Source: Sabellastarte sp. h YS-2021 (taxonomy: Eukaryota > Annelida > Polychaeta > Sabellida > Sabellidae). Taken from it: a DNA stretch of 64,000 nt. Where the stretch lies: NCBI GenBank assembly GCA_964017235.1, contig OZ024930.1, positions 153,326,221 to 153,390,220 on the forward strand. Reading direction: 5' to 3'. Numbering within the stretch: position 1 is the stretch's first letter; each line of letters starts with the position of its first letter. The notes below the pieces were generated by a model. The model saw only the letters and a list, made by a program, of their open reading frames with translations. It was not told the DNA's origin and made no database searches. The position numbers were made by a program, and so were the translations under genes. Below are positions 23,861-54,973 of the stretch, in pieces.

Positions 23861-23957
23861 TGTCCATTGGATAGGGTATTAACTTATAAAAATTTAATTT
23901 ACTTATTAAATTTGCAATTTTATTGCGTTTAATACATCCTATCCAATGGACAATAGC
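23861..23957 (-). repeat. DIRS copy 1 internal complementary region
   Basis: About 97 bp that joins complements of both outer ends: one half matches the outer end of the 3' terminal repeat (TTAACTTATAAAAA, AATTTACTTATTAAATTTGC), the other matches the outer end of the 5' terminal repeat (ATACATCCTATCCAATGGAC). In known DIRS elements this region is thought to template circle closure. Confidence 0.85.
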
Positions 23958-26288: not shown

Positions 26289-26302
26289 TGTATGGGTCTC
26301 AT
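25454..26302 (-). other. DIRS copy 1 RNase H region (fossil part)
   Basis: An open frame of 282 codons with RNase H features (LTDASKEGWGAHL, INYLELKAVFLAL, VATDNTTVVAYINKEGG), then a segment of the kind that follows RNase H in DIRS polyproteins (LSRLGQ, QIDLFATRFN). It overlaps the recombinase frame in another phase, an arrangement known for DIRS elements. Confidence 0.85.
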
Positions 26303-26340
26303 GTGCAGTCGGCCGAGGTGAACCTGTTTTTCTGTGGCTG

Positions 26341-27489
26341 TTAGCAGGCTATATCAGGGACATGGACTGTCGGACCGGACAGGCCGGTAGTAACAGGAGT
26401 ACTTGTATCTTGTCCTGAAGGCTTTGCCACCGGTCCGGGGTCGGTCTGACCCGGCCGGACCTGAGATCGAACTGGTAACCTACAAAGTCGAAGACCTGTT
26501 TGGGTTCCAGCTCTGATTTCTCTAAATTCACCAGCCAACCTAGGTCCTGGCACATTTTGATTAGGATTTGGGTGTGTTGGAGACAAGTTTCTTGGGATCT
26601 GGCTCTCACCAACCAGTCGTCTAGGTACTGGTGGATTCTTGTACCCTTGCGTATGGCCATCAGTTTCACCTCCTTTGCTAACACAGTGAACTCCATGGGC
26701 ACTGTGGACAGGCCAAAGGGCAATGCCTTGAATTGGTAAGTCCGGCCCTGGACATGAAATCTTAGGTATTTCCTGGATTGTTTCTGTATTGGTATGTGGA
26801 AGTAGGCATCCTTGAAGTCTACTGAGGTGACCCACTCCCCTTGTTGGAGGGATGTTCTGATGGTTTCTGTTGTCTCCATTTTGAATTTCTCCACCTTGAG
26901 GAAAAGGTTTAGTTTGCTTAGATCCAGTATTGGCCTCCATTTGTTGTTCTATTTTATTCTATTCTATTCTATTCTGTACTTTTATAGCGCTTAATCTCTG
27001 CTAGGCAGACTCTAAGGCGCAACACCAAAAATCAAGTTTAAGAAATCATCTGTCCATAGCCGTTGCCAAGTCCAGTACCACGGAGACGCCGGATAGAGTG
27101 TGAGCTAAGGTGGGAATGCCTTGTGGAAGAGATATGATTTCAATTCTAGGCCAATTCTTGGGTTTTGGGACTAGAAAAAGTCGATTGAAAAACCCCAGAG
27201 ATGTTTGATTGTGGACCAGTTCTACTGCATTTTTGTCCATAAGCTGATGTAATGCCTCCAACAGGTAGCTGTTCCTGTGGGGATTGACATAACGGCTTAC
27301 GACAGTCGGAGACCTTGTAAGATTTGGCCGGATCCGAAAGGGGAGGGTGTAACCCTCTCTCAAGATTTGAACTATTTTCGGACCGGCCCCTAGATCCAGC
27401 CAAGTTTGCCAAAAGTTTTGAAGTCTGGCCCCTACAGGTAGATTTGAGGCAACATTTTTGACACTTGTTACAGGTTGAACACAAGACAA
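26341..27489 (-). other. DIRS copy 1 reverse transcriptase region (fossil part)
   Basis: Minus-strand coding-like sequence with clear reverse transcriptase signatures: SVDFKDAYFHIPI, FKALPFGLSTVP and the YLDDW active-site motif in its DIRS-type form. A truncated SINE 3' end lies within the region. It is followed by the RNase H part. Confidence 0.85.
26941..27045 (-). mobile_element. Truncated SINE tail within DIRS copy 1
   Basis: A TTCTA microsatellite beside TTTTATAGCGCTTAATC. Read on the minus strand it matches the SINE-type tails seen at 15.7 kb (AAGCGC...TATAAA, then the microsatellite). It is present at the same place in DIRS copy 2, so it predates the duplication. Confidence 0.6.
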
Positions 27490-27698
27490 TGGAATGACAC
27501 AAGAAACAAGAAGATTTTAATGTACAATCTTTCTGATAACAGACTGCTGCCCCGGGACTTATTTCTTTCCTTTGTGAAAGCCCGGGCGCAGTATGAACAT
27601 TTGAAACAACAAGAGGTTTTACATTTAAAGAATTGTCTATTGTCTGTGCAGAGCTTCCGACCAGCAGCCTTGCCTATAAAAGTGTTATACAATGACTG

Positions 27699-29723: not shown

Positions 29724-29849
29724 AATGATCTATAAGTCTTCTAGAAATCGTTAATATAATAATAAAAGTAAAATAAGTAATAGTTCTCACATAAAACTTG
29801 AAATAAAATTCTACTCAGAAAATCCGTGTCACAAGTACATGCGCCAAAT

Positions 29850-30041
29850 GAAAAAGATGCTATGACGTCACGCTGTCTAGACAGGAAGGAAGTACGACAC
29901 GCCATCTGGCAAGTGCACAGTACTGGACCGGCCTGGCCGGTGGAAACACAAGACGTCTTTTTCTGACTTTTGGCGGGCCGGTCTGCGCCGACCGAATAAG
30001 CTATTGTCCATTGGATAGGATGTATCAACACAATAAAATTG
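29850..30041 (-). repeat. DIRS copy 1 5' inverted terminal repeat
   Basis: About 190 bp, inverted relative to 23,629-23,800. Shared features include CCTATCCAATGGACAATAGC, GGTCGGCGCAGACCGG and CACCGGCCAGGCCGGT. The outermost bases (CAATTTTATTG side) differ from the other terminal repeat, as is usual in DIRS elements. Confidence 0.85.
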
Positions 30042-30620
30042 TGTTTTGCCATTTTGGGCAAAAATTCGAAAATTCAAAATGGCCGCCATTTTTGGGGAGG
30101 GGAAAATTTTTTGAAAATTGCAAAGAGTACATTCCTTAGATACCCTGTGGATTGAAAATTTCGACGAAATCACTCTATCTCGCACGGTTAAGGAGATAGA
30201 AGCAAATTTGTGTTTTTCAATTTTTGGCAAAAATTCAAAAATTCAAAATGGCCGCCATTTTTGAGAAGGGGAGAATTTTTTGAAAATTGCAAAGAGTCCA
30301 TTCCTTAGGTACCCTGTGGGTCGAAAATTTTGACCAAATCGCTCTATCTCGCACAGTTAAGGAGACAGAAGCAAATTTGTGTTTTGCCATTTTTGGGAAA
30401 AATTCGAAAATTCAAAATGGCAGCCATTTTTGGGGAGGGGAAAATTTTTTTAAAATTGCCAAGAGTACAATGCTTAGATACCCTGTGGGTCGAACGCCAT
30501 TTTTGAGAAGGGGAAAATTTTTTGAAAATTGCAAAGAGTCCATTCCTTAGATACCCTGTGGGTCAAAAATTTCGACGAAATCACTCTATCTCGCACGGTT
30601 AAGGAGATAGAAGGAAATTT

Positions 30621-30830
30621 GCAAATTTAATAAGTAAATTAAGTTTTTATAAGTTAATACCCTATCCAATGGACAATAGCTTATCCGGTCGGCGCAGACC
30701 GGCCCGCCAAACGTCAGAAAAAGACGTCCTGTGTTTCCACCGGCCAGGCCGGTCCAGTACTGTGCACTCGCCAGATGGCGTGTCGTACTTCCTTCCTGTC
30801 TAGACAGCGTGATGTCATAGCATCTTTTTC
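30621..30830 (-). repeat. DIRS copy 2 3' inverted terminal repeat
   Basis: Same sequence and position in the element as the 3' terminal repeat of copy 1. Confidence 0.85.
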
Positions 30831-30891
30831 GTTGTCTAAACCTATTAGACCCCTAGTAAACTGATAGCGGGGTCAGTGGGAGGGTCTTGTG

Positions 30892-30988
30892 TGTCCATTG
30901 GATAGGGTATTAACTTATAAAAATTTAATTTACTTATTAAATTTGCAATTTTATTGCGTTAATACATCCTATCCAATGGACAATAGCT
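30892..30988 (-). repeat. DIRS copy 2 internal complementary region
   Basis: Same structure as in copy 1: complements of both outer ends placed side by side. Confidence 0.85.
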
Positions 30989-31311
30989 GAATAACTACCG
31001 CTTGGTAGGCATGTAAGTTACTAGGGACTTAGATGAACTCATAAAATAAAACTAATAACTTTAGGCCTGGGTAGACTCTGAGGTCAGGAAACCCTTATGG
31101 CTATAGTTGGTCAACAGATACTGGTTAACCAGTCCAACCGACTTACCCCCCCACCCCCCTTTTTGACAGACCTGCTCTGAGGTAGGGGAAGAGAGGGCGG
31201 AGTTCAGTCCCCTGAGAAGATATAAACCTCCCGAAGGAAGCACGTTTTTTTTTTTTTTTTTTTTTTTTTACTTAACTGTATGTACACTATTTACATATTT
31301 ACAAATCTCTT

Positions 31312-33321
31312 CTAGGTCCTAGTTTGTTGGTGGATCTGCTGAGCAGCCACTACAGGACCTAAATGGAAGAGCTCTGAATCAGCCCAGGCCACGTCCTTCA
31401 GATAGAACTGTGTGAAGGTATTATGGGATTTCCAGTGACAAGCTGACAAAATCTGCTTTAAGGAAACTCCCGACTGGAAGGCCTTAGAGGCAGCAAAGGC
31501 CCTGACATCATGGGCTTTGACCTGATGCAGGGTGTGGGCTTGATGATCAGAGAGCTCATAGCCTAGGATCACAGTTTGCTTGATCCATGAGGAGATAGTG
31601 GCAGGGGAGATGTCTTTGTCGAAGCCTTTCTTGAAGGAGACAAAGACTAGCCTCTTGCGCTGCCTGAGGTCTGACGTCCTGTCCAAATAGTAGCGCAAGG
31701 CTCTGACTGGACAAAGGGATCTGTCAGACTTGAGGGATTTATCTAGAGTAGGAGCCAGGGCTGGTATGACCACTGGGGCTACACTCTCTGGACCCTCTTT
31801 GGCCAGCTGATTCTTGGAAAGAAAGCTGGGAGATTGAAACAGGGACACCTTAGACCAATTGGATTGGTGTCTGATGTTCTTGTGCTGCCATGCATGGATC
31901 TCACTCCTTCTTTTGCCAGAGCCCAGGGCCAAAAGGAAGACAGTTTTGAAGGTAAGATGCTTCAGAGATGCCTCCCTAAGAGGTTCGAAAGGAGCCTTTG
32001 TCAGCTGGTGTAGTACCAGGGAAAGGTTCCAGGAGGGTATTCCCCTCCGCCCATTGGGTCTATCTCTGTGGAAACTTTCCAAGAGACGAGTGAGATTATC
32101 ATCTTTGCTGATATTGACTGTTGTATTACCTAGTGTATCAGCAATGGCAGACCTGTAGCCATCAATGGTGCTGAGCTGTAACTTCTTGTCCTCAAAGAGG
32201 TACATTAGGAAGTCAGCCACCGACTTTACAGGTGGTGACCTGAAGTCCACCTGATTAGTGACGCACCACTTTGTAAAAATGGTCCACTTTGCCTCATAGA
32301 CTGATCTGGTTGATCTTCTTTGAGGAGCCTCAATTCTTGCTGCCACTGCCTCAGAGAAGCCCTGTTCTTTGATTTTTGTGGCTCTAGGAGCCAGGCATGA
32401 AGATTTAGATTTGTCAGATTTCTGTGAGGGATCTGATTGAAGGGCTGTGTCAGCAGACTGGGCAGGTTGGGCAGGCTGAGGGGGACCTAGCTGGACATGT
32501 TCACCAAGTCCCAAAACCAAGGCATGTTGGGCCACCCCAGGGCAATCAAAATGAGTCTCTTGCATGGGGAGTCCAGTAGCTTCTCCACCACTTTGCCCAA
32601 TATGGCGGTTGGTGGGAAGGTGTATGCATCCAGGTCCTCCCACGGCAGAGTAAGTGCATCCACTGCTACAGCCAGGGAGTCCGGTACTGGAGAGACAAAC
32701 CGAGGTAATTTGTGGTTGAACCTCGTGGCAAAAAGATCTATTTGAGGGAGGTGCCATTGGTTGCATATTTGTTGAAAAACTTCCGGAAGGAGGGACCACT
32801 CTGTTTGGATGGTCTGACCCAGCCTGGATAGTTTGTCTGCTATCACATTTAAACGGCCTGGGATGTGTCGGGCTTTTAGTGTCACTTGTCGCTGGGAACA
32901 CCAGGTCAAGATTCTCCACAGTAGGGCACACAGTGGGCCCGACCTCATGCCTCCTTCCTTGTTTATGTAAGCTACCACTGTAGTATTGTCGGTTGCCACT
33001 AGAACTATTTTGTCTACACAGAGGTCTTGGAACTCTTTGAGGGCTAGAAACACTGCTTTGAGTTCCAGATAGTTTATGTGTAGCTTGCTTTCCGGCACCG
33101 ACCAGGACCCTCTTGCAGTGAACTCGTTTAAGTGAGCACCCCACCCTTCTTTTGATGCGTCTGTTAATATTTGCAGAGCATGTCTTACTGGGTGTAATGG
33201 TTGACCTTGAAGCACAATGTCTTCCTCTAGCCACCATTGTAAGTGAGGGTGCAGGGACCTTGGTAGAGGGATAATCTTCTCTAGAGATTCTGGTACCCTC
33301 CAATTGTTTTTGAGATGCCAC
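31312..33321 (-). CDS. DIRS copy 2 tyrosine recombinase ORF (fossil part)
   Basis: Counterpart of the copy 1 recombinase frame, 669 codons, nearly identical, with the same Arg, His-x-x-Arg and Tyr blocks. Confidence 0.85.
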   Translation of the reverse strand: MASQKQLEGTRISREDYPSTKVPAPSLTMVARGRHCASRSTITPSKTCSANINRRIKRRVGCSLKRVHCKRVLVGAGKQATHKLSGTQSSVSSPQRVPRPLCRQNSSSGNRQYYSGSLHKQGRRHEVGPTVCPTVENLDLVFPATSDTKSPTHPRPFKCDSRQTIQAGSDHPNRVVPPSGSFSTNMQPMAPPSNRSFCHEVQPQITSVCLSSTGLPGCSSGCTYSAVGGPGCIHLPTNRHIGQSGGEATGLPMQETHFDCPGVAQHALVLGLGEHVQLGPPQPAQPAQSADTALQSDPSQKSDKSKSSCLAPRATKIKEQGFSEAVAARIEAPQRRSTRSVYEAKWTIFTKWCVTNQVDFRSPPVKSVADFLMYLFEDKKLQLSTIDGYRSAIADTLGNTTVNISKDDNLTRLLESFHRDRPNGRRGIPSWNLSLVLHQLTKAPFEPLREASLKHLTFKTVFLLALGSGKRRSEIHAWQHKNIRHQSNWSKVSLFQSPSFLSKNQLAKEGPESVAPVVIPALAPTLDKSLKSDRSLCPVRALRYYLDRTSDLRQRKRLVFVSFKKGFDKDISPATISSWIKQTVILGYELSDHQAHTLHQVKAHDVRAFAASKAFQSGVSLKQILSACHWKSHNTFTQFYLKDVAWADSELFHLGPVVAAQQIHQQTRT

Positions 33322-33335
33322 TGTATGGGTCTCAT
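32487..33335 (-). other. DIRS copy 2 RNase H region (fossil part)
   Basis: Counterpart of the copy 1 RNase H frame, 282 codons, nearly identical. Confidence 0.85.
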
Positions 33336-33373
33336 GTGCAGTCGGCCGAGGTGAACCTGTTTTTCTGTGGCTG

Positions 33374-34522
33374 TTAGCAGGCTATATCAGGGACATGGAC
33401 TGTCGGACCGGACAGGCCGGTAGTAACAGGAGTACTTGTATCTTGTCCTGAAGGCTTTGCCACCGGTCCGGGGTCGGTCTGACCCGGCCGGACCTGAGAT
33501 CGAACTGGTAACCTACAAAGTCGAAGACCTGTTTGGGTTCCAGCTCTGATTTCTCTAAATTCACCAGCCAACCTAGGTCCTGGCACATTTTGATTAGGAT
33601 TTGGGTGTGTTGGAGACAAGTTTCTTGGGATCTGGCTCTCACCAACCAGTCGTCTAGGTACTGGTGGATTCTTGTACCCTTGCGTATGGCCATCAGTTTC
33701 ACCTCCTTTGCTAACACAGTGAACTCCATGGGCACTGTGGACAGGCCAAAGGGCAATGCCTTGAATTGGTAAGTCCGGCCCTGGACATGAAATCTTAGGT
33801 ATTTCCTGGATTGTTTCTGTATTGGTATGTGGAAGTAGGCATCCTTGAAGTCTACTGAGGTGACCCACTCCCCTTGTTGGAGGGATGTTCTGATGGTTTC
33901 TGTTGTCTCCATTTTGAATTTCTCCACCTTGAGGAAAAGGTTTAGTTTGCTTAGATCCAGTATTGGCCTCCATTTGTTGTTCTATTTTATTCTATTCTAT
34001 TCTATTCTGTACTTTTATAGCGCTTAATCTCTGCTAGGCAGACTCTAAGGCGCAACACCAAAAATCAAGTTTAAGAAATCATCTGTCCATAGCCGTTGCC
34101 AAGTCCAGTACCACGGAGACGCCGGATAGAGTGTGAGCTAAGGTGGGAATGCCTTGTGGAAGAGATATGATTTCAATTCTAGGCCAATTCTTGGGTTTTG
34201 GGACTAGAAAAAGTCGATTGAAAAACCCCAGAGATGTTTGATTGTGGACCAGTTCTACTGCATTTTTGTCCATAAGCTGATGTAATGCCTCCAACAGGTA
34301 GCTGTTCCTGTGGGGATTGACATAACGGCTTACGACAGTCGGAGACCTTGTAAGATTTGGCCGGATCCGAAAGGGGAGGGTGTAACCCTCTCTCAAGATT
34401 TGAACTATTTTCGGACTGGCCCCTAGATCCAGCCAAGTTTGCCAAAAGTTTTGAAGTCTGGCCCCTACAGGTAGATTTGAGGCAACATTTTTGACACTTG
34501 TTACAGGTTGAACACAAGACAA
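33374..34522 (-). other. DIRS copy 2 reverse transcriptase region (fossil part)
   Basis: Counterpart of the copy 1 region, with the same reverse transcriptase motifs and the same embedded SINE tail. Confidence 0.85.
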
Positions 34523-34731
34523 TGGAATGACACAAGAAACAAGAAGATTTTAATGTACAATCTTTCTGATAACAGACTGCTGCCCCGGGACTTATTTCTT
34601 TCCTTTGTGAAAGCCCGGGCGCAGTATGAACATTTGAAACAACAAGAGGTTTTACATTTAAAGAATTGTCTATTGTCTGTGCAGAGCTTCCGGCCAGCAG
34701 CCTTGCCTATAAAAGTGTTATACAATGACTG

Positions 34732-36756
34732 TCATTTATAAGACTGCTGGCCCTTGCCTGGTCGGGTGGAGTACTGGTACTTTCCTTTCCCTCTACGGTG
34801 TTGACCATGAGAAGAGATATTCTTCCAAGCCGGCCTATCTTGTCTTGTACTATCCGGCTTTTTGTCATGTTTCTCATAAGGGTGGTATCTACCCTTCTTG
34901 TACACTGAACCTGAACGATTTCTGTCGAAGGCTGCTATGTCCTCTTCGGCCTGTTTGACAATCTTATCAGGGAAGAGGGTGTCCAGATCCAGAGGGGCTG
35001 CCCTAAGTGCATTTAAAGTGTCTGCTTTTACCCCGGCTTTCAAATAAGACAGGTAGGAGTCTCTTCTCATTAAGGTGGTGTTTGCTACATTTACAAAAAC
35101 AAAGTCGGTCAAATGTTCCATTGCCCTAGCCATTGCGTGGCACACACTAGAATTGAAATCTAGGAGGAACTGTAGTTCATCAGTGGCTGTTGAAACTTTA
35201 CTGGCCGACTTGCCCTTAGACTCTGTCCGGATGGTCTTGAGATGGGATTGCATATTTTGCTGGACCTTGAGAAGGCAGAGATTAAATCCGGCAGCCTGGT
35301 TGCATATTACAGAGGACTCTCTGGCCGACCTTTCCCACTTCCTGAGATTCTCTTGAGATATGGGCCTAGACAAGGGTGGGTTAGAGGCAATGCCGGCTTG
35401 TCGGGCTATTCTCAGGTAGGTGCTATTCAGTCGGGAAGAACCCGTATTCCAGGACTTAAGAGAGTCAGAACTGTCCTTCTTTACTTCTGCATGCAAATTA
35501 TACCATTTTGACTGCGACTTGGCCGTCCGGACAAACTGGTCCCTTTGTAGAGTGCCTGCCTCAGTGGTACGTGAGGGATAACCTTGCATTAAGGTGAGAT
35601 TAAGTTTGCTCAGCTTGCTGCACAACCACTCGTCGGTGGGTAAAGCGACAGAAATCTTCCCTGGTGTCTGCATTTTTGGCCCAGCAAAAGGGTTATCGTC
35701 TGATGATTTGGTGCCCGAATCCACGTCAGGGATGTGGCCCCACCCCCTGTAGGACCGGATGCCCCTCATTGTTTCCCGGTAAGATTGTTCCTCTGAGAGG
35801 GATTGATCCGGGTCGGTGAAGGAAACATCATCTTCATCAGAGAGCTCACCCTCTTCTGGGAAAAGATCTACTGGAGGTTGGTCTGAAATTCTACTGTCTA
35901 CATCCGAGTCACTTGAAGAAGTGTCCTTCCTAGTAATATCCAAGGTACCGGACACATGCTTCTGAACAGTAGGTTGGTCGGACACACTAGAAATTCCTGG
36001 TTGCTGAAAAGGCGGAGATACGTCTGATCCGGCCTGTGAAGCAGTAGCTGAGCTAGCAGGGTCGGTAGCCGGTAGAGTAGAAGTGGGAGGTCGGTGAGGA
36101 GGTTGGCCGGCTGGCTTCAGAAAGGGTTCAGTGCTGACAACACTAGCAGGAGGAGCATGGGTCGGTGTGACCTTGACAGCAGCAAAAACAGGCTCTTGAG
36201 GTCGGTCTAAAGATTTGGCAAGAAGGAGAGCCTCCAACCGGTTGAACCGGTCCGACCACTTCTGCTCCATCACTTCTAACTTCTGGTCGGTACTGGTGGA
36301 AGATGAGGGTCGGTGAGATGAAGATTTGACCGACTTGTCAGCTTTAACCGACTTGTCAGTGGAAGCCTTCATGTCCTCCTTCTTCTTTTTCTTTTCTACC
36401 GGCTGATCACTCAAACCAGGCGACTTAGAGGTGCTCTGGCCATCCACAATCCCCATTACCGTCACTGAGGACGGGTCCACAAGGGTGGGACTGAGAGTGG
36501 AATCTGTAGACGATTTCTTGGCTGGTGTAGAAGACTTGGATTCCCTTTTCTCCTTCTTGAGTTGGTAAGACGGGGTAGACAAATGAACTAATTGTTCTGG
36601 AGTAAGGGCATTACAGTGACGGCAATCCGCCCCTTCCTTCTCTACACAAGGGTCCTTCCCTTTTTTCTTATCACGACAGTGTGCACAAACTGTGTGAGAC
36701 TCATAACCAGCCATCATATGGCCACAACTACCCCGTCGTTGACTGGGAGAAGACAT
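34732..36756 (-). CDS. DIRS copy 2 gag-like ORF (fossil part)
   Basis: Counterpart of the copy 1 gag-like frame: same length, only a few residue differences, with the Cys/His-rich N-terminus and basic C-terminus retained. Confidence 0.75.
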   Translation of the reverse strand: MSSPSQRRGSCGHMMAGYESHTVCAHCRDKKKGKDPCVEKEGADCRHCNALTPEQLVHLSTPSYQLKKEKRESKSSTPAKKSSTDSTLSPTLVDPSSVTVMGIVDGQSTSKSPGLSDQPVEKKKKKEDMKASTDKSVKADKSVKSSSHRPSSSTSTDQKLEVMEQKWSDRFNRLEALLLAKSLDRPQEPVFAAVKVTPTHAPPASVVSTEPFLKPAGQPPHRPPTSTLPATDPASSATASQAGSDVSPPFQQPGISSVSDQPTVQKHVSGTLDITRKDTSSSDSDVDSRISDQPPVDLFPEEGELSDEDDVSFTDPDQSLSEEQSYRETMRGIRSYRGWGHIPDVDSGTKSSDDNPFAGPKMQTPGKISVALPTDEWLCSKLSKLNLTLMQGYPSRTTEAGTLQRDQFVRTAKSQSKWYNLHAEVKKDSSDSLKSWNTGSSRLNSTYLRIARQAGIASNPPLSRPISQENLRKWERSARESSVICNQAAGFNLCLLKVQQNMQSHLKTIRTESKGKSASKVSTATDELQFLLDFNSSVCHAMARAMEHLTDFVFVNVANTTLMRRDSYLSYLKAGVKADTLNALRAAPLDLDTLFPDKIVKQAEEDIAAFDRNRSGSVYKKGRYHPYEKHDKKPDSTRQDRPAWKNISSHGQHRRGKGKYQYSTRPGKGQQSYK

Positions 36757-36882
36757 AATGATCTATAAGTCTTCTAGAAATCGTTAATATAATAATAAAA
36801 GTAAAATAAGTAATAGTTCTCACATAAAACTTGAAATAAAATTCTACTCAGAAAATCCGTGTCACAAGTACATGCGCCAAAT

Positions 36883-37073
36883 GAAAAAGATGCTATGACG
36901 TCACGCTGTCTAGACAGGAAGGAAGTACGACACGCCATCTGGCAAGTGCACAGTACTGGACCGGCCTGGCCGGTGGAAACACAAGACGTCTTTTTCTGAC
37001 TTTTGGCGGGCCGGTCTGCGCCGACCGAATAAGCTATTGTCCATTGGATAGGATGTATCAACACAATAAAATT
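36883..37073 (-). repeat. DIRS copy 2 5' inverted terminal repeat
   Basis: Same sequence and position in the element as the 5' terminal repeat of copy 1. Confidence 0.85.
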
Positions 37074-37994
37074 GTGTTTTGCCATTTTGGGCAAAAATTC
37101 GAAAATTCAAAATGGCCGCCATTTTTGGGGAGGGGAAAATTTTTTGAAAATTGCAAAGAGTACATTCCTTAGATACCCTGTGGATTGAAAATTTCGACGA
37201 AATCACTTTATCTCGCACGGTTAAGGAGATAGAAGCAAATTTGTGTTTTTCAATTTTTGGCAAAAATTCAAAAATTCAAAATGGCCGCCATTTTTGAGAA
37301 GGGGAGAATTTTTTGAAAATTGCAAAGAGTCCATTCCTTAGGTACCCTGTGGGTCGAAAATTTTGACCAAATCGCTCTATCTCGCACGGTTAAGGAGACA
37401 GAAGCAAATTTGTGTTTTGCCATTTTTGGGAAAAATTCGAAAATTCAAAATGGCAGCCATTTTTGGGGAGGGGAAAATTTTTTATAAATTGCCAAGAGTA
37501 TGATGCTCAGATACCCTATGGGTTGAAAATTTCAACGAAATCGCTCTATCTCGCATGGTTAAGGAGATAGAAGCAAATTTATGTTTTGCCATTTTTGGGA
37601 AATATTCGAAAATTCAAAATGGCCGCCAATTTTTGGGAAGGGAAAATTTTTTGGAAAACTGCAAAGAGTACATTCCTTAGATACCCTGTGGGTCGAAAAT
37701 TTCGACGAAATCGCTCTATCTTGCACGGTTAAGGAGATATGAGCACATTTGCGTTTTTCAGTATTCAAAATAGCCAATTACTCATTTATTTAATTAATTA
37801 CTCACTCATGTATGAAGCAATTCCCCCCAAAAGCAATCCCATACAAGCTATTAACCCAATAAACCTGCATGCCAAATTTGGTAAAGATAGGATAAGAACT
37901 GTTGCCTAAAATGTCTGGAAACCAAGTGGGACGCCGGACGGCAGACGGCGGAAAGAGCAAAAATAATATGTCCACCCCCCAGCGGGGTGGACAT

Positions 37995-39666: not shown

Positions 39667-39826
39667 CTCCAACCACTTCCTGTGCCTCCTGAAAAGAGGC
39701 CATCTACAATAGCACTGACTAGTATTCCTGTTGTAATCTGAAGTTGAAACAAGGTAACAAGGATGCCTCGCTGATGTGGTAAGCAACATTCAGCAATATA
39801 CATTGGTACAGTCATAGAGGTGAGAC
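39667..39826 (-). CDS. SLC2A13: SLC2A13-like transporter, alternative exon 3b
   Basis: A 160-bp exon on the minus strand: acceptor TTCTTTCTCAG, then 52 full codons, then donor AG/GTAATA. It encodes LTSMTVPMYIAECCLPHQRG and then a membrane segment ending VDGLFSGG...GSGWR, the TM4-TM5 part of a sugar porter (PMYIAE and QRG-LVT match the family's PxYxAE and RGxLV motifs). It begins with two bases that complete a codon and ends with two bases, exactly as exon 3a does, so either can follow exon 2 but using both in series would shift the frame. The TM5 part (LQITTGILVS) differs clearly from 3a (VMVAGGQFVA). It appears intact, so alternative use is more likely than decay. Confidence 0.8.
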
Positions 39827-39900
39827 CTGAGAAAGAATTGAGTGAAACAAATAGCTATGAACAGAAATGATAAAAAAATTGCATATCTAACATGTTAACA

Positions 39901-40190
39901 CGGCTGTTCCATATTGGCGATTGAATTGTACACCATGTCCCCGATTGGAGAAATCCGGACTTGGTCAGGATTCGATGGAAGAAGAGAGGATGAATTTCAT
40001 GGTTAAAACTGCCAGCTTTCCCAGGGAAATTGCAAATGGGGGGTAACTCCAACCCTTCCCAGATGCTACGATCGTGGTTTATGAACCGTCCAAGTGAAAA
40101 GATTGTCCTCCTGAATGCTCCCGAATGGCAAACTTTCAGAATTTGCGACCCTATCGGGGAGGTTGATCATCAATATGGAACAGCCCTCTA
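39901..40190. mobile_element. MITE with GGCTGTTCCATATTG ends
   Basis: About 290 bp with terminal inverted repeats: left GGCTGTTCCATATTGGCGAT, right CAATATGGAACAGCC. No coding capacity. The ends resemble a GGGCTGTTCCAT-type MITE group that I recall from several invertebrate genomes. No clear target duplication was seen, so the superfamily is not assigned. Confidence 0.6.
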
Positions 40191-40748
40191 AAGCAGGAGA
40201 CTCTGTGGAAGTGGAACAAGTGTTAGTTAAATTCAGGTGAACATGAAACCAGCAATTTAGTTCTGGGGTCAGAATAATGCATTCTATTTGTGTGTAAAAT
40301 TTGAACTTAACATTAACTAGAACCAAACCAGCTGGGGATAGTGAACATTCTTTTTATATTAAGTAAACTGCATTGCTTTCAGTCTTGCAACATTATGAAA
40401 CAAGGCAGATTATACTTGAAAAACTTAAGCCGCAAAAAAGGATTTGCAAAAAACATTCTGTGAAACTATATTTCTATAAAACAAAACTGCAAAATCAGGA
40501 GCATAGTGAAATATCAATGGTACTTTCAAAGTGAATTTTTTCCAAGTTGAAACAATTATTATATAATTTCTTTCTAGCTTATTGCTTTTTGTTTTCAGCA
40601 TAACTACTTTACCAACACGCAACATAACTAGTCATGCAATAAACAATAAATGTTCCACAGCTCACAGAAAATCCTTCTGGTATTAACAATTACAACAAAG
40701 TATTAGAAATCATTGAAAAACAAACTCAACATCAACAGTGTCTAAATT
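40191..40748. other. No recognised feature
   Basis: AT-rich intronic DNA between exons 3a and 3b. Nothing recognised. Confidence 0.4.
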
Positions 40749-42640
40749 AACTAGATATTGCGTCTCGAGGCAGTGTATCCCCGGACGGGACATGGTTGAA
40801 GCGTGAATGTGTCGGGCTTGAGTCCTTTTCCTGGAGTACCAGCTCAGGATTCTCCATAGTAGGGCACAAAGAGGGCCCAACTTACTGCCCCCCCCCCCCT
40901 CCCTAAATAGGCAACCACCATGGTGTTGTCCGTAGCTATGGTAGCAATAAGGTTCAAGCAGAGGTCTTGGAACTCCTTTAGGGCCAAAAGACCGCCTTGG
41001 TTCCAGATACTTTATCTGTAACTTGCTTCTGGAAGGGACCAGATTTCCCTTGTAATGTGTTCCCCTAAGTGAGCACTCGCCCTTCTTGATGCATCTGTAA
41101 GGATTTGCAGAGCATATTTAAGTAGGTGTAATGGTTGACCTTGAAGCACATTGTCATCCTACAATCACCATTTTAGATGGGGTGGAGTGAGCTGGGATCA
41201 CCTTTTCTAGTGAGTCTGATACCCTTCAGCTGTTCTTTAAGTGCCACTGTATCTGCCTTATATGGAGGTGACCTAGGTGGACTTGCTTCTGTATGGGTGT
41301 CAGTAACCCACACAACCCCACTGTGGAAAACACAAATAGCCATTTATGAGAACTGTGACCCCTGGTCTGATTAACAGATAAATTTACCATTGCCTGAGTT
41401 GTGAAAACCAGCAAATGGGTTATAATCTTGAGGGGAAGGCTGATTTTGGAAACTTAGGCCCCTGGTGTCAGCTGACACTGCTCACAGGCTGGGTAAAAGG
41501 CAAGCTGGGTGGCCAGTCTAGGAGGGTGGATCACTGTATCTCACTGGAACCCATAAGAAAAACTTGATGAACCTCCACAGTAACTGATACAGCAGACTTC
41601 TTGTTGGTGGTAGGTTGACCAGTCCGGTTGAGTTCGGCATCTAACCGGGACCAGTAACTGGTTGGTGTGGGGTCTGATAAGATAAGGCTGACAGGTAGTT
41701 GGACAAATTTTGTTGGGAAAGTCTTCTTATCTATAGTCACTTTTGACCAGCTAGGAGGTCCTGACAGTAGGCTGGCTGACCGGTCTGGTAGGTTGAGACA
41801 GTCATGTCACCGAGACCAATGACTGGTATAAGAATTTCTCCTGTAACCAATTTCCTCGGGCAGTAACTGGTTGATCTGAGACGGCCACTTGGACCCTTAA
41901 AAGGCTACTGCTGGTCTGTTAGCAAGTCTTGTGGACCGGCCCAGTACCAGGGCCTAACCGGCTATAGGTGAAGCAATCCTGTAACCAGTTCCTGTTGGCT
42001 CCACAGTTCTGCGAAAACTCATAGGAGCTGGCAGAACTGGGCGAAATAGACTACATCTCAGCAGGGTTAGGCTTATATGAAACAACTGCCTTCTTCCTGT
42101 CCATAACTGTGGAATCAGCAGCTTTTCTCTGCAAGCAACAATCCTCTGTAACTACTAAGTCTGGATACTGGTACTCCATCATGTACTCAACCTCCAAAAC
42201 CATTTTCAATAGTTTCCATGCAATATAGTCAGCAATAAGTGTGAAAATATCTCCAAAAATGGCCTCGGTCAGGTACCTTGGATGACCTGTGGATGACCTT
42301 CAATGAAGAGCTTCAAGGTCAAATTTCTGCATGCTTATAGAAGACATATATATGTATTATATATACCAGCCATAGGATGATCTAACTTTCTGTATATGAG
42401 AATTGGGCCAAAATGTGAAAAAATGGCCAAAATCTGACATTTAAGAGGCCACCAGTGAACTTGAAGGTCAAGGTCACAAAACAATAGCATTCGTGGCATT
42501 GCCCATATATACCCACATACCAAAATTGAAAGTTCTAACTAAAATATTTTTCAAGTTATCACGTCCAAAGGGAAATCACTGCGGCGGCGGCATGACCGTA
42601 CTGAATCCTAAGTATCCCCGACTTTCATCCGGGGATACAA
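40749..42640 (+). repeat. Family B hairpin-ended element, copy 2
   Basis: Same ends as copy 1: left AACTAGATATTGCGTCTCG and TGTATCCCCGGACG, right GCGGCGGCATGACCG and the hairpin GTATCCCCGAC...ATCCGGGGATAC. It lacks the long 550-bp array of copy 1. Instead the left half holds a decayed DIRS fragment and a stretch of unknown origin (41.4-42.1 kb). The right half keeps one copy of the CAGGTACCTTGGATGACC unit and the common 3' region. Confidence 0.7.
40795..41310 (-). mobile_element. Decayed DIRS fragment inside family B copy 2 (fossil)
   Basis: About 0.5 kb that parallels 25,836-26,340 of DIRS copy 1, with matches such as AGGTCTTGGAACTC, GGTGTAATGGTTGACCTTGA and ATTTGCAGAGCAT. It corresponds to the RNase H part, is heavily decayed with many breaks, and is much older than the two large DIRS elements. 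Confidence 0.75.
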
Positions 42641-43598
42641 TTGATATGCAATACAACTTTTTGTAGTATTTCTGTTCATTGAAAACTTTTATCTTGACAA
42701 AAAACAACTGTTGCATAACACACTAAATGGGCCAACTCTGTACTTAGAATGTACTGGGTTACTGAATCTCCAGACTGGCATGTAAATAATGAGACATTGG
42801 CAACCCAATCAAATACAGATAAGCAGAAATACTACATCAAAACGATGAATCAGTTTTTTTACTCTTGAATGGAATACCTTCCAATGTGTATAATGAAACA
42901 TCAGGAACAGATTATACTATTATTATTATGTTTTTCTTTACTTTGAAATGGCGATACAAAACAGATAGTTGATGTTAAATAAATAAAACAACAATGTACC
43001 ATCCCATCTCAATAAAAATAAAATCTCTGACATAAGAGACAAAAACAAAGAAAAACATTTCACAAAATAATGAAATGTATAAACTATTTACATGAAAATT
43101 GAGAACTCACAATACCATGCACACAATAGAAACAATACAAAGCCAAAGAGCTGTGTTGTAAAGTACAAGTTCATGACACGAGTGCTCTGTCATAAATACA
43201 AATACATGCCAAGAACAGTGAAAGAAATAATGGATGACTGTATACAGTGACAAAAACTAACTACCACTACACGTCCAAAAATAACCTCTTTTATCTGTAC
43301 ATATATTGGGAAAAGAGTGTATGGATTATTAACAGTTTTCAAAAATAAACATACAATACTGCTAAAGCTTGCACGATGCATTAATTTTTGCTGTACAAGG
43401 TAGTGTGTGAAATGTTAAATCAATACAATCTTTATAGTATAAACTGTTACTGAAAATTAAGTCATGTAAATTTTGTGAAAATTTTTCCTGAAATTCTTTT
43501 TTCAAGCTAAAACTTCCACCCATAAAACACTGTGTGGAAGTATGATTGTTTAATAGAATGTTGGATAAAAGAGGTCCTAGTTTGTAACCACCACCAAC
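42641..43598. other. No recognised feature
   Basis: AT-rich intronic DNA directly downstream of exon 3a on the minus strand. No gene or repeat recognised. Confidence 0.4.
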
Positions 43599-43755
43599 CT
43601 CCATCCATCCCGCTCAAAACTGAACAAGCCATCCACAACATTGGCCACAAATTGCCCCCCAGCCACCATGACAATATTTGTGGACACAAGACGTCCTCGG
43701 GCATACACAGGGGAGGACTCTGCTATGTACATAGGGATGGTCGTAGATGTTAGAC
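43599..43755 (-). CDS. SLC2A13: SLC2A13-like transporter, alternative exon 3a
   Basis: A 157-bp exon on the minus strand: acceptor CTTTTAATGTAG, then 51 full codons, then donor AG/GTTGGT. It encodes LTSTTIPMYIAESSPVYARG, then RLVS, GGQFVANVVDGLFS and DGWR, covering TM4 to the loop after TM5 of the sugar porter fold. RGRLVS and GGQF match vertebrate HMIT ([27 protein letters not shown]) better than exon 3b does, so this is probably the ancestral-type exon. Its phases are identical to 3b. A ladder of partial copies of its acceptor and first codons lies just upstream. Confidence 0.85.
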
Positions 43756-43960
43756 CTACATTAAAAGAGTAAAATAATGTTAACAATTAGAGGAACAGCA
43801 TAGGAATTGTTACAGATATTAGACCTACATGAAAACACTGACTACTAATAATGAGTATATAAAATTAGAGGGTCAGCACGGGGAGGGTCACACATGTTAG
43901 ATGTGCAGAAAAATGGTGGAATAATGTTAACAATTAGAAGGTATAATAGGTGTAGTCTTA
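43756..43960 (-). repeat. Two partial tandem copies of the exon 3a acceptor and exon start
   Basis: Upstream of exon 3a the sequence repeats with steps of 69 and 78 bp. Copy at 43,824: TTTTCATGTAG/GTCTAATATC, which in the exon frame would read LISVTIPMLFL and then stop. Copy at 43,902: CTGCAC/ATCTAACATG, which would read LTCVTLPVLTL and then stop. The real exon reads LTSTTIPMYIA. Each copy then runs into the same intron sequence (CTCTAATT and, in two of the three, GTTAACATTATT). The middle copy keeps an AG acceptor. Confidence 0.75.
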
Positions 43961-46370: not shown

Positions 46371-47689
46371 AAAACAGCATTGGAGATGCCCACACCCCAC
46401 AGCCTGGGACACCATGAGATATGAAGATATAAGATATGAGATAGAAGAAGTGAAACAGAAAAAGATCAGGAGATTTTCAGAGCAAACAGTGTCAGTTATA
46501 TAAAGAATCAAATAATGTTTAAGTAGAGAATCTAATGTCTAAGAGAGACAATGTATGTAAAAATAAAGTATTAAAAGAAGACAATAGCAAGATCATAGCA
46601 TTAATCAGTGAACTGCAAGTTATGAAGCTGTAAGATTTATTAATTGAAGTATAGCTGCCAATACAAATAGCACAATATCCTTATAAATCCCCCCTATTAA
46701 ATCCCCCCCCTCCTCTCTTACCTTTACAAAGGTTATACTTTGGGGATTTACACACCCCCCCCCCAAAAAAAAAAACCACTACCTGTACGATTCCAAGATT
46801 CAGAAAAAAGATGCATTTTAGTACTTCCCTATTCAAATTACCAGGAAATCAAAACAAAACATGGCAGTTTTGATCACAAATGACAGAATCGAGAGTTGTT
46901 TTTTGTGTCTGTAACAGTGCCCCCCGACTTGATAAAAATGCATCTCCCCGGGGTTTTTATATGAATAAATACGGTAATAAGTTACAGCCATCCATATATA
47001 TTTGTGGTAAGAGAAATAGGTCAGCTCTCAAATATCGCAGGTGAAAACACTTCAGCAGAGTCAAGGTTAAAGGTCAAACCATGATTTAGCATCCCTACAC
47101 TCCTTAACCATTGGTTGGAAATTGTACAACTTACTATTTCAGTGATATAGCCTGGACAAGATTTTATAGGTCAAAGTCACTACAGCAAGGTCAAATGTCA
47201 AAGTAAAGGTCACACCATGATGTTGCACACCTGCACTACCTAACCAATGTCCTTACTAAGTATCAACTTCCTGCACCCTACAGTTTCTGTGATATACCCC
47301 GGACAATGTCAAGGTCACTATGGCAAGGTGAAAGGTCAAATCAAGGTAACGCCAGGACACTACATACCTATAGCTTCTTACCAGTGTCCATACCAAATAT
47401 CAACCTTCTACACTTTACAGAGTCTGTGATATTGACAGGACAAGATTTTAAAGGTCAAGGTCACTGCAGCAAGGTCAAAGGTCAAATCAAGGTCACACCA
47501 TGATGTTACACACCTACAACCCCTAACCAATGTCCCTACCAAGTATCAACTTCTACACCTTACGGTTTCTAAGATATAGCCCAGATAAGATTTTAGAAGT
47601 CAAGGTCACTACAGCAAGGTCATAGGTCAAATCTAAATGCCCTGTTCCACCAAAAGATTAAGCCCCGATCCTGTCGGCGACCCTTAATC

Positions 47690-48066: not shown

Positions 48067-48109
48067 ATTTGCGATCTAATCATCATTGCTTTTCTAGGAA
48101 CACACCAGG

Positions 48110-49423
48110 ATGCCACCTTTTAATGGAAGACAGATTCAACAACAACTTAGGGCTTTTTTGGTTTTTATTCAGTTACAAATAATCATGTATTTCCATTTTT
48201 TACGTCAAGCACAGCAACCACCACCACCACCACCAGCACCACCAGCACCCATACAGAGACCTAGAAGAAGGCACAACATGTGGGTCAGGCCATGGCTACT
48301 GCAGAGAGAGGAGAGGGGGGCCTACCACAACATTATGGCTGATCTGTATGCCACAGACATTCCAGGATTCACCAACTACATGAGGATGACCCCAGAATTC
48401 TTTGAAATGATGAAGACCAGACTGGAACCACGTCTAGCCAGGCAGGCCACCAACTACAGAGCTCCTATCAGTGTTGGGGAGAAGTTAGCCCTCACCATCA
48501 GATATCTGGCCACTGGAGAGTCATACACATCATTATCCTGTCAGTTCAGGGTTGGCAGATCCACCATTTCCAAGTTTCTACCAGAGGTCTGCAGGGCCAT
48601 CCAGGATGAGTTCACCAGAGAGTACCTCAAATGTCCTACTACTCCAGATGAGTGGAAAGAACTGGAAAGGGAATTCAGGATCAGGTGGAATGTTCCACAT
48701 GCCCTGGGAGCCCTGGATGGAAAGCATGTGGCCCTGAAGAAACCCAAGAACTCTGGAGCCCTCTACCACAACTACAAGGGGTTCTTTTCCATTGTCATGT
48801 TGGCCTTGGTAGATGGGCAGTACAAATTCAGATGGGTGGATGTGGGTACAGAAGGGTCTTGCTCAGATGCCCAGATATTTAATGCCTCTCAGCTGAAGAG
48901 GAGGATTGAAGATGGCAGGATAGGCTTCCCTGACCCAGCTCCTATAACACAGGGTGGTAGAGATGTCCCCTACTTCATTTTGGCAGATGATGCCTTTGCC
49001 CTGAAGACCTGGCTCATGAAACCCTATGGCAGAAGGCTGTTAACAAGGGAGGAAAGGATTGCCAACTACAGAATATCAAGGGGCAGGAGAGTTGTGGAGA
49101 ACGCTTTTGGCATCCTTGTGTCAAGATTTAGAGTCATGAGGACCACCATTGAACTACCCCCAGAAACAGTTAGAGAAGTGGTCATGACCTGTGTGGTTCT
49201 GCACAATATACTCAGAAGCCAGTATCAAGGTCAACCTGCTGGTCAGCAGCCTGGGGGGGATGATGATGATGATGATGTGCCTGGTGATTGTGGATTGATT
49301 GGTGGTGCTGCTGGTGGTGGCCAAGACAGAAACCCTGCTAGAGAGGCCAAAAGACAGAGGGATTACCTGAAGGACTACTTCAATAATGAGGGAGCAGTGG
49401 CCTGGCAAGATGGCAGAATATAA
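48110..49423 (+). CDS. PIF/Harbinger transposase (HARBI1-like, DDE_Tnp_4)
   Basis: 437 residues, somewhat longer than typical HARBI1-type proteins (about 350) because of a Pro-rich N-terminal stretch (residues 37-47) and an acidic Asp run (384-389) with a basic C-terminus. A helix-turn-helix-like segment lies at about 123-164 (GEKLALTIRYLATGESYTSL). The DDE nuclease domain spans about 195-368: ALDGKHV (D203), GSCSDAQIF (D253), LADDAFALK (D293-294) and VVENAFG (E330), then VVLHNIL as in HARBI1. All acidic blocks expected for catalysis are present and the frame is open throughout. It would cut and paste the element together with the MADF partner encoded on the other strand. Confidence 0.93.
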   Translation: MPPFNGRQIQQQLRAFLVFIQLQIIMYFHFLRQAQQPPPPPPAPPAPIQRPRRRHNMWVRPWLLQREERGAYHNIMADLYATDIPGFTNYMRMTPEFFEMMKTRLEPRLARQATNYRAPISVGEKLALTIRYLATGESYTSLSCQFRVGRSTISKFLPEVCRAIQDEFTREYLKCPTTPDEWKELEREFRIRWNVPHALGALDGKHVALKKPKNSGALYHNYKGFFSIVMLALVDGQYKFRWVDVGTEGSCSDAQIFNASQLKRRIEDGRIGFPDPAPITQGGRDVPYFILADDAFALKTWLMKPYGRRLLTREERIANYRISRGRRVVENAFGILVSRFRVMRTTIELPPETVREVVMTCVVLHNILRSQYQGQPAGQQPGGDDDDDDVPGDCGLIGGAAGGGQDRNPAREAKRQRDYLKDYFNNEGAVAWQDGRI

Positions 49424-49760: not shown

Positions 49761-50564
49761 CAACAAACAGACAAACCCACTGTTAAACAAAAGCGAAACA
49801 CAAAGTGACACATAATATCCTAAATTGAATAATTATTTTATATATTTTCAAATCCACATCATAATTTAAACATTTTTCTTTTTTCATGGCTGGGAAACTT
49901 ATTTGTAGCAGAAATTTTTTTATGGAAATATTCAATTTTAAATATTCATTTCTAATCACAAAAATTTGGAAAATATAACCATGGAACTAGTTTTGCTTTC
50001 AATAATGGGGGATTGTGTTTGCTAAATAGTTTGTCAGTTCGTTGGCATGGGTTCTATTTACTTTTGGGTTTGGGTGTTTGTTGGTTGGTGGTTACTGGGG
50101 TTGGGTTTTTTTGGGGTAGTTGGGTATTAGGTTTGGTACTGGGTTTGTTATTTGGGGGTTATGTTTGGTATTGGGTTTGTCTGTTTGTGGGTTGGTAAGT
50201 ATGTAATTATGCCTTTTAACTCTAGGGAAGGTGCAAGTGTTGGACTTTTCAATTACAGATTTTAAACTATCCCATGGATTTTAATCTAAAAATGGGCTGA
50301 TTAATGGCCATATTGGGAGTTACTTTTAATATTTTTTTTATGTGGCCTTTTTGGTTATGTGTAGTACCATGGGTTATTTGTTTCATGTTTGGGGTGGTGT
50401 AAGTGTTGGACTTTAATTTTTTTTTTCTTGTGATAAGTATTTGTACTGAACTTTTTTGTTTTGGGAGGGGAATTGGAAGAACACGTAGCTGAATAATTGT
50501 TTTTGGAAGATTTGGTGGCCCTGAAAAGGGCCTGGCAGGTCAAAGACCCGCCCTGACTGGATGG
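49761..50564. other. Harbinger internal spacer
   Basis: Non-coding DNA between the converging genes, with a G/T-rich stretch at 50.04-50.2 kb. No canonical AATAAA poly(A) signal was noticed for the transposase. Confidence 0.5.
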
Positions 50565-50651: not shown

Positions 50652-51788
50652 CTACTGAGGCTGCTCGACGATCTGTGTTGATGTCAGATCTGGTAGCTGG
50701 CTTAAGATTCCACTCAGATTGTGTCTGCTCCCTTCGTCCTGTACAGTTAGAACAGATGTAGGGTTGCTGAAGCCAATGGGGCTTGGTGTATAGTACACAA
50801 AACTGCTGCTAGCTGCTGCTTGAGTGGAACTTGACGCCTGTGGAGTGGTTGTTGGCAGTAGGCCGACCCTCTGGGACTCCGTGGTAACAGTGGCTGATCT
50901 TCTGGGCAATGGCTGACGTCTGCGGTTACTCTTAATATTTTCGATATCTCTGAATATCTTGCCCTTTAATTCTTCAAATTCTTCTTGAGTCATCTTTTCA
51001 GCCTCTGATGCCACGTAGTCAAAGAAGGGCTGCCTGTCTGACTTCTGATGCAGAAAACCTGAGATAAGTGTCCTCATCTGCTCAAAGTGTTCGAGAATCT
51101 TGGAGTCTGTAGTTGAAACGGGTGTTGATGTAATGATGGACTGACTCCTCTCCCTCAGGACACTGGACGCGAGGTGTTCTGTGTCAGTAGTTGACCCACG
51201 TGATTCGTCCTGCTTGCTGGTATTTGGACTGGCCTCAAAACCTGAACTTCTATTGGCCCCCTTTCTTCTGATGTGGGTTTTAAGAAAACCCATCTGTTGG
51301 TAGACCCAGGACTGTCTCTTGGTCATCTCCCTCGGGGCTTGGCCAGATTGGAGCTTAGACAGCTTTCCATAACGGGTTCGCTGGGACTCAAACCACCTTC
51401 TCACATCAAAGGGCTGGAGCTTAAGTTCTGCAGATATTTCTGCCCAGAGAGCCTCTCTTCTGTTCCTGTCGTGGAAACGTGAATGTTCCTTGTCATACAG
51501 TTCAGGGTGCAGCTTGACGAATTCTACAATGGAAACTTCATCACTGTCTGTAAAAGTGGCACACACCCTGGCTCTCTTGGCTGAAGAATGGCACTCCGGA
51601 TCTTCCTCACACCTCTCTTCTTCTTCTGCCACAGCTTCCCCAATAGCTGGATCTTCCTGAATCTCCTCCTCCTCTCTCCTCTCACTTCCTTCTTCTGTAA
51701 TAACTTCACTCCTCTCCTCTACTTGACTTTCCTTCTCCCTCTCATCCATCTTTTTCCTTCCTCTCTTCCCTCCTTTCTCTTTTCTCAT
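50652..51788 (-). CDS. Harbinger-encoded MADF/BESS-like DNA-binding protein
   Basis: 378 residues on the minus strand. The N-terminus (1-75) is highly charged (Lys then Glu-rich). A MADF domain (Myb/SANT-like) lies at about 85-170, with VEFVKLHPELYDKEHSRF, REALWAEISAEL and DVRRWFESQRTRYGKL. After a Ser/Thr-rich linker, residues 254-290 (FFDYVASEAEKMTQEEFEEL) resemble a BESS protein-interaction motif. Harbinger elements carry such a protein to bring the transposase to the DNA ends and the nucleus. The start is the first ATG, with a TATATAAG about 175 bp upstream. The frame is open for a further 28 Gln/Pro-rich codons after the stop. Confidence 0.88.
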   Translation of the reverse strand: MRKEKGGKRGRKKMDEREKESQVEERSEVITEEGSERREEEEIQEDPAIGEAVAEEEERCEEDPECHSSAKRARVCATFTDSDEVSIVEFVKLHPELYDKEHSRFHDRNRREALWAEISAELKLQPFDVRRWFESQRTRYGKLSKLQSGQAPREMTKRQSWVYQQMGFLKTHIRRKGANRSSGFEASPNTSKQDESRGSTTDTEHLASSVLRERSQSIITSTPVSTTDSKILEHFEQMRTLISGFLHQKSDRQPFFDYVASEAEKMTQEEFEELKGKIFRDIENIKSNRRRQPLPRRSATVTTESQRVGLLPTTTPQASSSTQAAASSSFVYYTPSPIGFSNPTSVLTVQDEGSRHNLSGILSQLPDLTSTQIVEQPQ

Positions 51789-51962
51789 GATCCAGTCGAC
51801 AAAATAATAAAAAAATAGTAAAATGTGTCTCCTAACTGTGAAATTTGCCTTAAGCTCAAGTACATAAAATGTAAAATAAAAATTGAAAACCCCTACAAAT
51901 CAGTGACACACGTCTCTCAGTAGCCAAACAGTCAGTAACAATGACAAAGTGTGCGCGGTCGC

Positions 51963-53548: not shown

Positions 53549-53692
53549 CAATGCCTGCTCCAACAATTATTCTGCCCACAAGTAACACCTCTCTGGTGGG
53601 AGCCATAGCCATACAGAGGGCGCCTGCCATAAATACCATACTCGCCACAACAATGACAGGCTTACGGCCCAGTCGGTCATTCAGGAAACCAC
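53549..53692 (-). CDS. SLC2A13: SLC2A13-like transporter, exon 2
   Basis: A 144-bp exon: acceptor ATTTTGTATAG, then codons for GGFLNDRLGRKPVIVVASMV, FMAGALCMAMAP and TREVLLVGRIIVGAGIG, then donor G/GTTTGT. It covers the end of TM2, the TM2-TM3 loop with the DRLGRK motif typical of sugar porters, TM3 and the start of TM4. Its first two bases complete the Gly codon opened by exon 1, and its last base opens the Gly codon completed by exon 3a or 3b. Identity is clear from alignment by eye with human HMIT (GRRAAILLASALFTAGSAVL...GRLVVGLGIG). Confidence 0.9.
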
Positions 53693-54560: not shown

Positions 54561-54973
54561 CAACCAAAGCAAAAACAGCAGCTGCACCTATTGTGACACT
54601 AACAACCATTTCCTGCCACACAGAGTTCAAACGGAACTGGTCCCGCAGTAAAATCATTGCCCCCGAAATCACGCCAGTGTCATAGCCAAACAGGAAGCCA
54701 CCAATGGCCGAGAAGAATGTCAGGAGATACACAAACGGTGGGGTTTTGACTTTATTTCCCAGCTGGTCAAGTCTCAGACTGGAGGTCTCACTGTAGCTAG
54801 AAGCCATGTAAGGATGGCCTGAAGCACTGGTGTGACGATTTGACATCTCGCCAACCTTATCATTTTTATACACTTCCTGTGGCTTCTCCACTTTAGTCTG
54901 CATAAATTCTGCCATGGCAAATTTAGAAATACACTTATAGAACACAGGTGGTGGCTAGGACTTCATATGCGAC
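54561..54973 (-). CDS. SLC2A13: SLC2A13-like H+/myo-inositol co-transporter, start-codon exon
   Basis: A strong acceptor (CTTCTTTTATTGCAG) opens the exon at 54,973, so a non-coding first exon lies further upstream. Coding starts at the ATG at 54,915-54,913 (GCCATGG context) and runs 118 codons plus one base to donor TTG/GTAAGT. The N-terminal 55 residues are cytosolic. TM1 is at about 61-79 ([20 protein letters not shown]) with the GYDTGV sugar-porter motif, and TM2 starts at about 101. It matches human HMIT ([20 protein letters not shown]) closely. The family imports myo-inositol with protons across plasma or internal membranes. A three-codon upstream ORF (ATGAAGTCCTAG) sits in the 5' leader. 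Only the first third of the protein is in this window. Confidence 0.92.
54950..54966 (-). promoter_or_regulatory. Minimal upstream ORF in the transporter leader
   Basis: An ATG AAG TCC TAG in the leader, about 40 bp before the main ATG. It could lower initiation at the main start or have no effect; its ATG context is weak. Confidence 0.4.

Follow-up and report, generated by a model that had tools for sequence, protein, structure and literature searches.

An SLC2A13-like sugar porter gene of the annelid Sabellastarte with a predicted pair of alternative exons for transmembrane helix 5

Introduction

Mutually exclusive exons are already known, including in solute carriers, and a human survey names SLC25A3 and SLC39A14 among the genes that have them; no SLC2A gene is named in its main text (PMC5740500). 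In SLC25A3 and SLC39A14, exons of equal frame swap part of a folded domain, and the same arrangement can be read in the DNA described here, a stretch of 64,000 bases from Sabellastarte sp. h YS-2021 (contig OZ024930.1, positions 153,326,221 to 153,390,220; the window). Its minus strand carries the 5' portion of a gene for a sugar porter resembling SLC2A13/HMIT, with coding exons 1 and 2 and two versions of exon 3, called 3a and 3b. SLC25A3 and SLC39A14 belong to other carrier families, whereas here the exchange falls on mapped substrate contacts. An earlier note on this stretch had proposed that 3a and 3b are mutually exclusive and that the choice between them could alter substrate or coupling.

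SLC2A13/HMIT (GLUT13) is a proton-myo-inositol cotransporter and, with the human protein as the one compared, appears to be the best fit for exons 1, 2 and 3a. HMIT has an extended, cysteine-holding loop between transmembrane helices (TM) 9 and 10 (PMC2890515); the counterpart exons of the present gene lie outside the window. In the open-licence literature we found no report of a mutually exclusive exon in SLC2A13 and nothing on homologous exons in transporters. By title, among the matches listed, there was no mutually exclusive exon pair in sugar transporters and no mutually exclusive exon in a myo-inositol transporter, SLC2A or HMIT, and no title described an electron cryomicroscopy structure of SLC2A13 with inositol.

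Results

Two versions of exon 3 in an HMIT-like gene

Comparison of the human SLC2A13 protein with the window (39% G+C, no N) gave four clear stretches, with E values of 2e-22, 2e-15, 8e-10 and 3e-9, the next match having an E value of 0.59. Identity over the aligned stretches was 57% for exon 1, 48% for exon 2 and approximately 42% for exon 3a, in what is the sole comparison made with HMIT. Membership of the sugar porter family of the major facilitator superfamily was indicated by profile matches. Exons 2, 3a (44.9 bits) and 3b (48.8 bits) scored above the cut-off of the Pfam family Sugar_tr (PF00083), and exon 1 scored below it (20.3 against 22.3 bits). TIGR00879 matched all four exons (exon 1, 41.7; 3a, 38.8; 3b, 47.9 bits), all short of a cut-off that is set for whole proteins and that single exons are not expected to reach. 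The positions of the exons are given in Table 1. Upstream of exon 1, which starts at 54,973 as judged from a likely acceptor, there would be an intron in the 5' untranslated region.

Table 1. Coding exons of the SLC2A13-like gene and the codons of 3a and 3b at two TM5 sugar-pocket positions (window coordinates)
Feature	Position	Strand	Description
Coding exon 1	54561..54915	-	from ATG to the opening base of a Gly codon; donor GTAAGT; covers TM1-TM2; contains FGYDTGV
Coding exon 2	53549..53692	-	144 nt; TM2-TM4; weak donor GTTTGT
Exon 3a	43599..43755	-	157 nt; TM4 end and TM5; donor GTTGGT
Exon 3b	39667..39826	-	160 nt; alternative version of TM4 end and TM5; donor GTAATA
3a codon ATT (Ile)	43673..43675	-	aligned to XylE Q168 / GLUT1 Q161
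3a codon CAA (Gln)	43652..43654	-	aligned to XylE Q175 / GLUT1 I168
3b codon CAA (Gln)	39744..39746	-	aligned to XylE Q168 / GLUT1 Q161
3b codon ATA (Ile)	39723..39725	-	aligned to XylE Q175 / GLUT1 I168

On re-reading, the coordinates, the entry and exit phases and the sequences of 3a and 3b, including their differences in TM5, were as the earlier note had given them. Exons 3a and 3b each complete a Gly codon with one base from exon 2 and end two bases into an Arg codon, and their lengths both leave a remainder of one on division by three. Joining exon 2 to either gave an open reading frame, which agrees with the claim that each fits exon 2. The proposal that double use would break the frame was also borne out, since joining 3a to 3b shifted the frame and brought in a stop after 11 codons. 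If neither were used, exon 2 would end one base into a codon, where two bases would be required by an exon 4 that matches the end of exon 3. The exit phase was compared between 3a and 3b and not with an actual exon 4, so that the claim of an equal exit holds for the pair; no exon 4 was found in the window.

The exons had also been credited with good splice sites. All exon ends are GT-AG, and we scored them with a rough textbook-type weight matrix, expressing the scores as percentiles among all AGs or all GTs of the window. The acceptor and donor of 3b stood at percentiles 99.7 and 96.1, and those of 3a at 96.7 and 95.3. The sites were not uniformly good, however, as the donor of exon 2 reached only percentile 70.0. 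The spacing between 3a and 3b is 3,772 nt, which makes a steric block unlikely; exclusion would depend on regulated splicing together with loss of the transcripts that include both. Ten inverted repeats of 18-32 nt lie in the 5.2 kb region and are candidate RNA arms for enforcing exclusion; their number was not compared with chance.

The human survey gives criteria by which mutually exclusive exons are recognised, and in one of its subsets the frames cause decay upon joint inclusion in 20 of 28 genes (PMC5740500). Judged by such criteria, 3a and 3b are neighbouring, similar in sequence and length, in the same frame, free of stops and bounded by GT-AG, with their internal position assumed on the 3' side.

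Homology and constraint of the two exons

The statement that 3a and 3b encode the same TM4-TM5 region was confirmed, as 25 of 52 residues are identical and each exon retrieves the other by tblastn (E approximately 2e-10). The identity is unevenly spread: with segment borders set by us, 11 of 13 residues agreed in the last part of TM4, 2 of 8 in the cytosolic TM4-TM5 link, 5 of 20 within TM5 and 7 of 11 beyond it. Outside TM5 the two share VDGLFS and GLTS.T.PMYIAE, flanks that we take to be HMIT-like by comparison with the human sequence. Nucleotide identity was 26/52, 33/52 and 18/52 at the first, second and third codon positions, and 5 of 16 shared fourfold codons had the same third base. The nonsynonymous distance was 0.59; the synonymous distance could not be computed (the NG86 method returned -1), which is consistent with saturation. 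The duplication is thus old, and both exons look constrained. The best match between the introns around 3a and 3b had an E value of 0.029, which we took as no leftover homology.

It may nevertheless be that a single exon is used, in which case the other, perhaps 3b, would be a remnant left by an old duplication and would hardly ever enter transcripts. That sequences are duplicated and decay at this locus is seen just upstream of 3a, where decayed partial copies of its first part lie. We simulated neutral divergence 20,000 times, starting from 3a and continuing to the observed nucleotide identity between the exons. None of the 20,000 runs reached 25 identical residues; the largest number retained was 22 and the mean 11.7, and 3,113 runs were free of stops. 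Because no neutral run kept such protein identity, 3b is neither a chance resemblance nor an unconstrained relic. In addition, the reading frame of 3b is open, its acceptor scores higher than that of 3a, and it fits the family slightly better than 3a by both PF00083 and TIGR00879. We regard a relic as improbable.

A second possibility is that 3b comes from another gene or another sugar porter and is no alternative to 3a. Its TM5 does resemble that of class I GLUTs and of bacterial GlcP. Against this, the window yielded neither another complete copy of exons 1, 2 or 3 (the next match had an E value of approximately 2) nor any later exons, the phases of 3b fit exon 2, and the flanks outside TM5 resemble those of 3a. 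An origin in a separate gene thus seems to us very improbable. Among bacterial and archaeal genome contigs there was one relative of 3b, a Saccharopolyspora sugar porter with 43% identity, and there was none among viral contigs. Taken together, the homology, the equal phases, the coding constraint and the lack of second exons 1 and 2 support an alternative pair, and 3a and 3b are quite probably working alternative exons, as judged from their sequence.

A search of the window for a third exon 3 returned only short decayed units upstream of 3a. These are two tandem units on the minus strand, at 43,785-43,835 and 43,863-43,913, copied from the 3a acceptor and first codons. The unit nearer to 3a retains an AG, encodes GLISVTIPM followed by LFL and a stop codon, and could serve as a decoy acceptor (percentile 91).

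Exchange of residues at the TM5 sugar pocket

The residues of TM5 at the sugar site are Q168, I171 and Q175 in XylE, and Q161 and I164 in GLUT1, where Q175 is unconserved and replaced by I168 (PMC3853582). The TM5 Gln is described as strictly conserved and as the sole residue of the N-terminal bundle seen coordinating glucose (PMC10322154), and coordination of the sugar by a single residue of this bundle is reported elsewhere as well (PMC10322152). When aligned with HMMER, 3b placed FQLQITTGI over NQLAIVIGI of GLUT4, NQLMITIGI of GlcP, PQLFITIGI of GLUT5 and NQFAIIFGQ of XylE, and 3a placed NIVMVAGGQ over the XylE and GLUT4 columns. At XylE positions 168/171/175 the residues are therefore I/V/Q in 3a and Q/I/I in 3b. 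The nearest solved chains were GLUT4 (E value 4.3e-5) and then GlcP for 3b, and XylE (1e-4) and then GLUT4 (0.012) for 3a.

Exon 3b thus has the hexose-type TM5, with Gln at 168 and Ile at 175 as in GLUT1, and shares Q/I/I with GLUT1, GLUT4, GLUT5 and GlcP; 3a does not. Q/I/I is also present in the Saccharopolyspora relative of 3b. Conversely, the proposed inositol-type TM5, with a residue other than Gln at 168 and Gln at 175, is found in 3a and not in 3b. This not-Q/x/Q arrangement in TM5 occurs in human HMIT and in certain other carriers of inositol. The locus is like HMIT in the TM5 of 3a and unlike it in having a second exon 3 with a GLUT-type TM5.

A change at position 175 has been made in XylE, where Q175I together with L297F gives glucose transport and neither change does so alone; one study put the glucose transport of the double mutant at approximately 10% of the xylose transport of the wild type, and the other found it near the wild-type xylose level (PMC8784342, PMC13095657). 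Since 3a and 3b carry different residues at pocket positions known from solved structures of sugar porters, the idea that the exon choice could change the substrate gains strength, and we give about an even chance that the choice alters substrate preference or affinity.

The other half of that claim, an effect on coupling, appears less likely, because the coupling residues are encoded by the shared exons 1 and 2. The proton-coupling residues are an Asp in TM1 and an Arg in TM4. We take FGYD in exon 1 to correspond to the protonation site of XylE; FGYD is also the reading in proton symporters. That site is Asp27 in XylE, and GLUT1 has Asn29 there (PMC5491310). The gene thus differs from GLUT1 in exon 1, and the TM5 flanks of 3b resemble those of 3a.

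Alternatively, both exons may be used, with the exchange mainly tuning kinetics, folding, targeting or regulation for the same substrate. The cytosolic TM4-TM5 link also differs, and in sugar porters TM5 contacts TM8 and TM1 in a state-dependent manner (PMC10322152). However, the exchange takes in two pocket positions of TM5 out of the three given for XylE, with the Gln oppositely placed, and each form fits a recurring pattern. We consider such tuning possible, though rather unlikely as the main effect.

The TM5 pattern in porters beside bacterial inositol genes

If a residue other than Gln at 168 with Gln at 175 marks inositol-type porters, then porters beside inositol genes should carry it. 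We counted 62 iolD rows above the TIGR04377 cut-off and examined 60 loci, leaving out G029:C435 and G380:C60; many of the last 20 loci are short contigs. A sugar porter was called by phmmer with two queries at an E value of 1e-15. Four of the 60 loci had one, and the remaining 56 had none at this threshold. An earlier pass over 40 loci at 1e-8 had additionally given two weak open reading frames without the motif (L091 and L082). The four porters, which lie 3.4-5.1 kb from iolD, all read E/I/Q at positions 168/171/175.

As background we used 19 porters, comprising 16 of the 17 porters of one set and L131-L133; L140 was left out as the neighbour of an iolD gene already counted as L105. Pattern matching gave 15 porters with Q/not-Q, two with not-Q/Q and two unmatched (L002 and L139), for which inspection by eye gave Q/V/I and Q/I/I. 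In total, 17 of 19 background porters were Q/x/not-Q and two were E/I/Q. The difference from the iolD neighbours (4/4 against 2/19) gave a Fisher p of 0.0017, a value that is only a guide because the genomes are related. A single genome, reached because one of its genes resembles 3b, contributes eight of the 19, among them that gene itself (L004); with this genome removed, 10 of 11 were Q/x/not-Q. From these few genes we infer that the not-Q/x/Q pattern may correspond to the inositol type. The two background porters with E/I/Q (L006 and L141) may be inositol-type carriers distant from iolD. Searches for iolE (a match in 62 of 149 genomes, none above the cut-off) and for xylose isomerase (6/60) were not used in this test.

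Discussion

The explanation that we consider best overall, and reasonably probable, is that an HMIT-like porter has kept an alternative exon pair carrying an inositol-type and a hexose-type TM5. One internal exon of an SLC2A13-type sugar porter would have been duplicated in tandem long ago and retained as a pair. The spliceosome would join exon 2 to one or the other version of exon 3, with a choice that might differ by tissue or state, and transcripts with both or neither would be unproductive and probably lost through nonsense-mediated decay. Both forms would be proton-coupled, the coupling parts being in shared exons; the 3a form would be a myo-inositol-type carrier, and the 3b form would supply the hexose-type Gln and Ile. 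The strongest version of this idea is a full switch from inositol to hexose, in which one gene provides both carriers by moving the TM5 pocket Gln from 175 to 168 through exon exchange while retaining the shared proton-coupling parts. We hold this version only tentatively and think it rather doubtful.

Several points weigh against the favoured explanation. The use of 3a and 3b one at a time is predicted from the sequence, and the donor sites of both exon 2 and 3a depart from the consensus. Exon 4 or later exons were not found in the window, where separate probes for four later protein pieces gave a best E value of 0.045, on the opposite strand. Since the probes gave nothing better, exon 4 probably lies beyond the window, more than 39.6 kb from 3b. 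With respect to substrate, 15 of the 20 TM5 residues differ between 3a and 3b, so that change at the pocket sites is unsurprising in itself, and the remaining pocket (TM7, TM10 and TM11) is encoded outside the window. XylE has Gln at both sites yet does not transport glucose; the patterns are therefore no simple code. Q175I alone does not give XylE glucose transport (PMC13095657). Finally, the bacterial comparison concerns four genes from related genomes, and these have Glu rather than Ile at 168.

If the explanation holds, the novelty would lie in a sugar porter whose single scaffold has kept two TM5 pockets, with splicing choosing between them. The two forms, differing only in the exon 3 segment, would amount to a natural experiment on substrate choice in a family with nearly invariant sugar contacts. 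Point mutations in XylE and GLUT5 have already probed sites that include the exchanged ones.

Repeats and mobile elements around the exons

The intron after 3b holds a direct repeat of 7.5 kb (23,004-30,494 and 30,035-37,527) with 99.2% identity. Its second copy has reverse transcriptase and RNase H-like matches and tyrosine-recombinase matches below the Pfam cut-off, and we regard the two copies as a pair of DIRS-like retroelements. Between 3a and 3b, at 40,710-41,158 on the minus strand, there are stretches that to the eye resemble decayed fragments of this retroelement, with no Pfam match. Intron 2 includes a DDE_Tnp_4 transposase frame (48,098-49,423, plus strand) and a MADF (Myb/SANT-like) frame (50,652-51,899, minus strand), a combination resembling the gene pair of a PIF/Harbinger element. 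Beside the MADF frame lies the only Rfam match of the window, a histone 3' untranslated region stem-loop (50,492-50,537, minus strand; 35.2 bits against a cut-off of 34). A tandem array with a step of approximately 146 bases occupies 57,546-58,855, and related stretches, with approximately 80-92% identity, occur near 16,600-21,200 and at 47,125-47,636.

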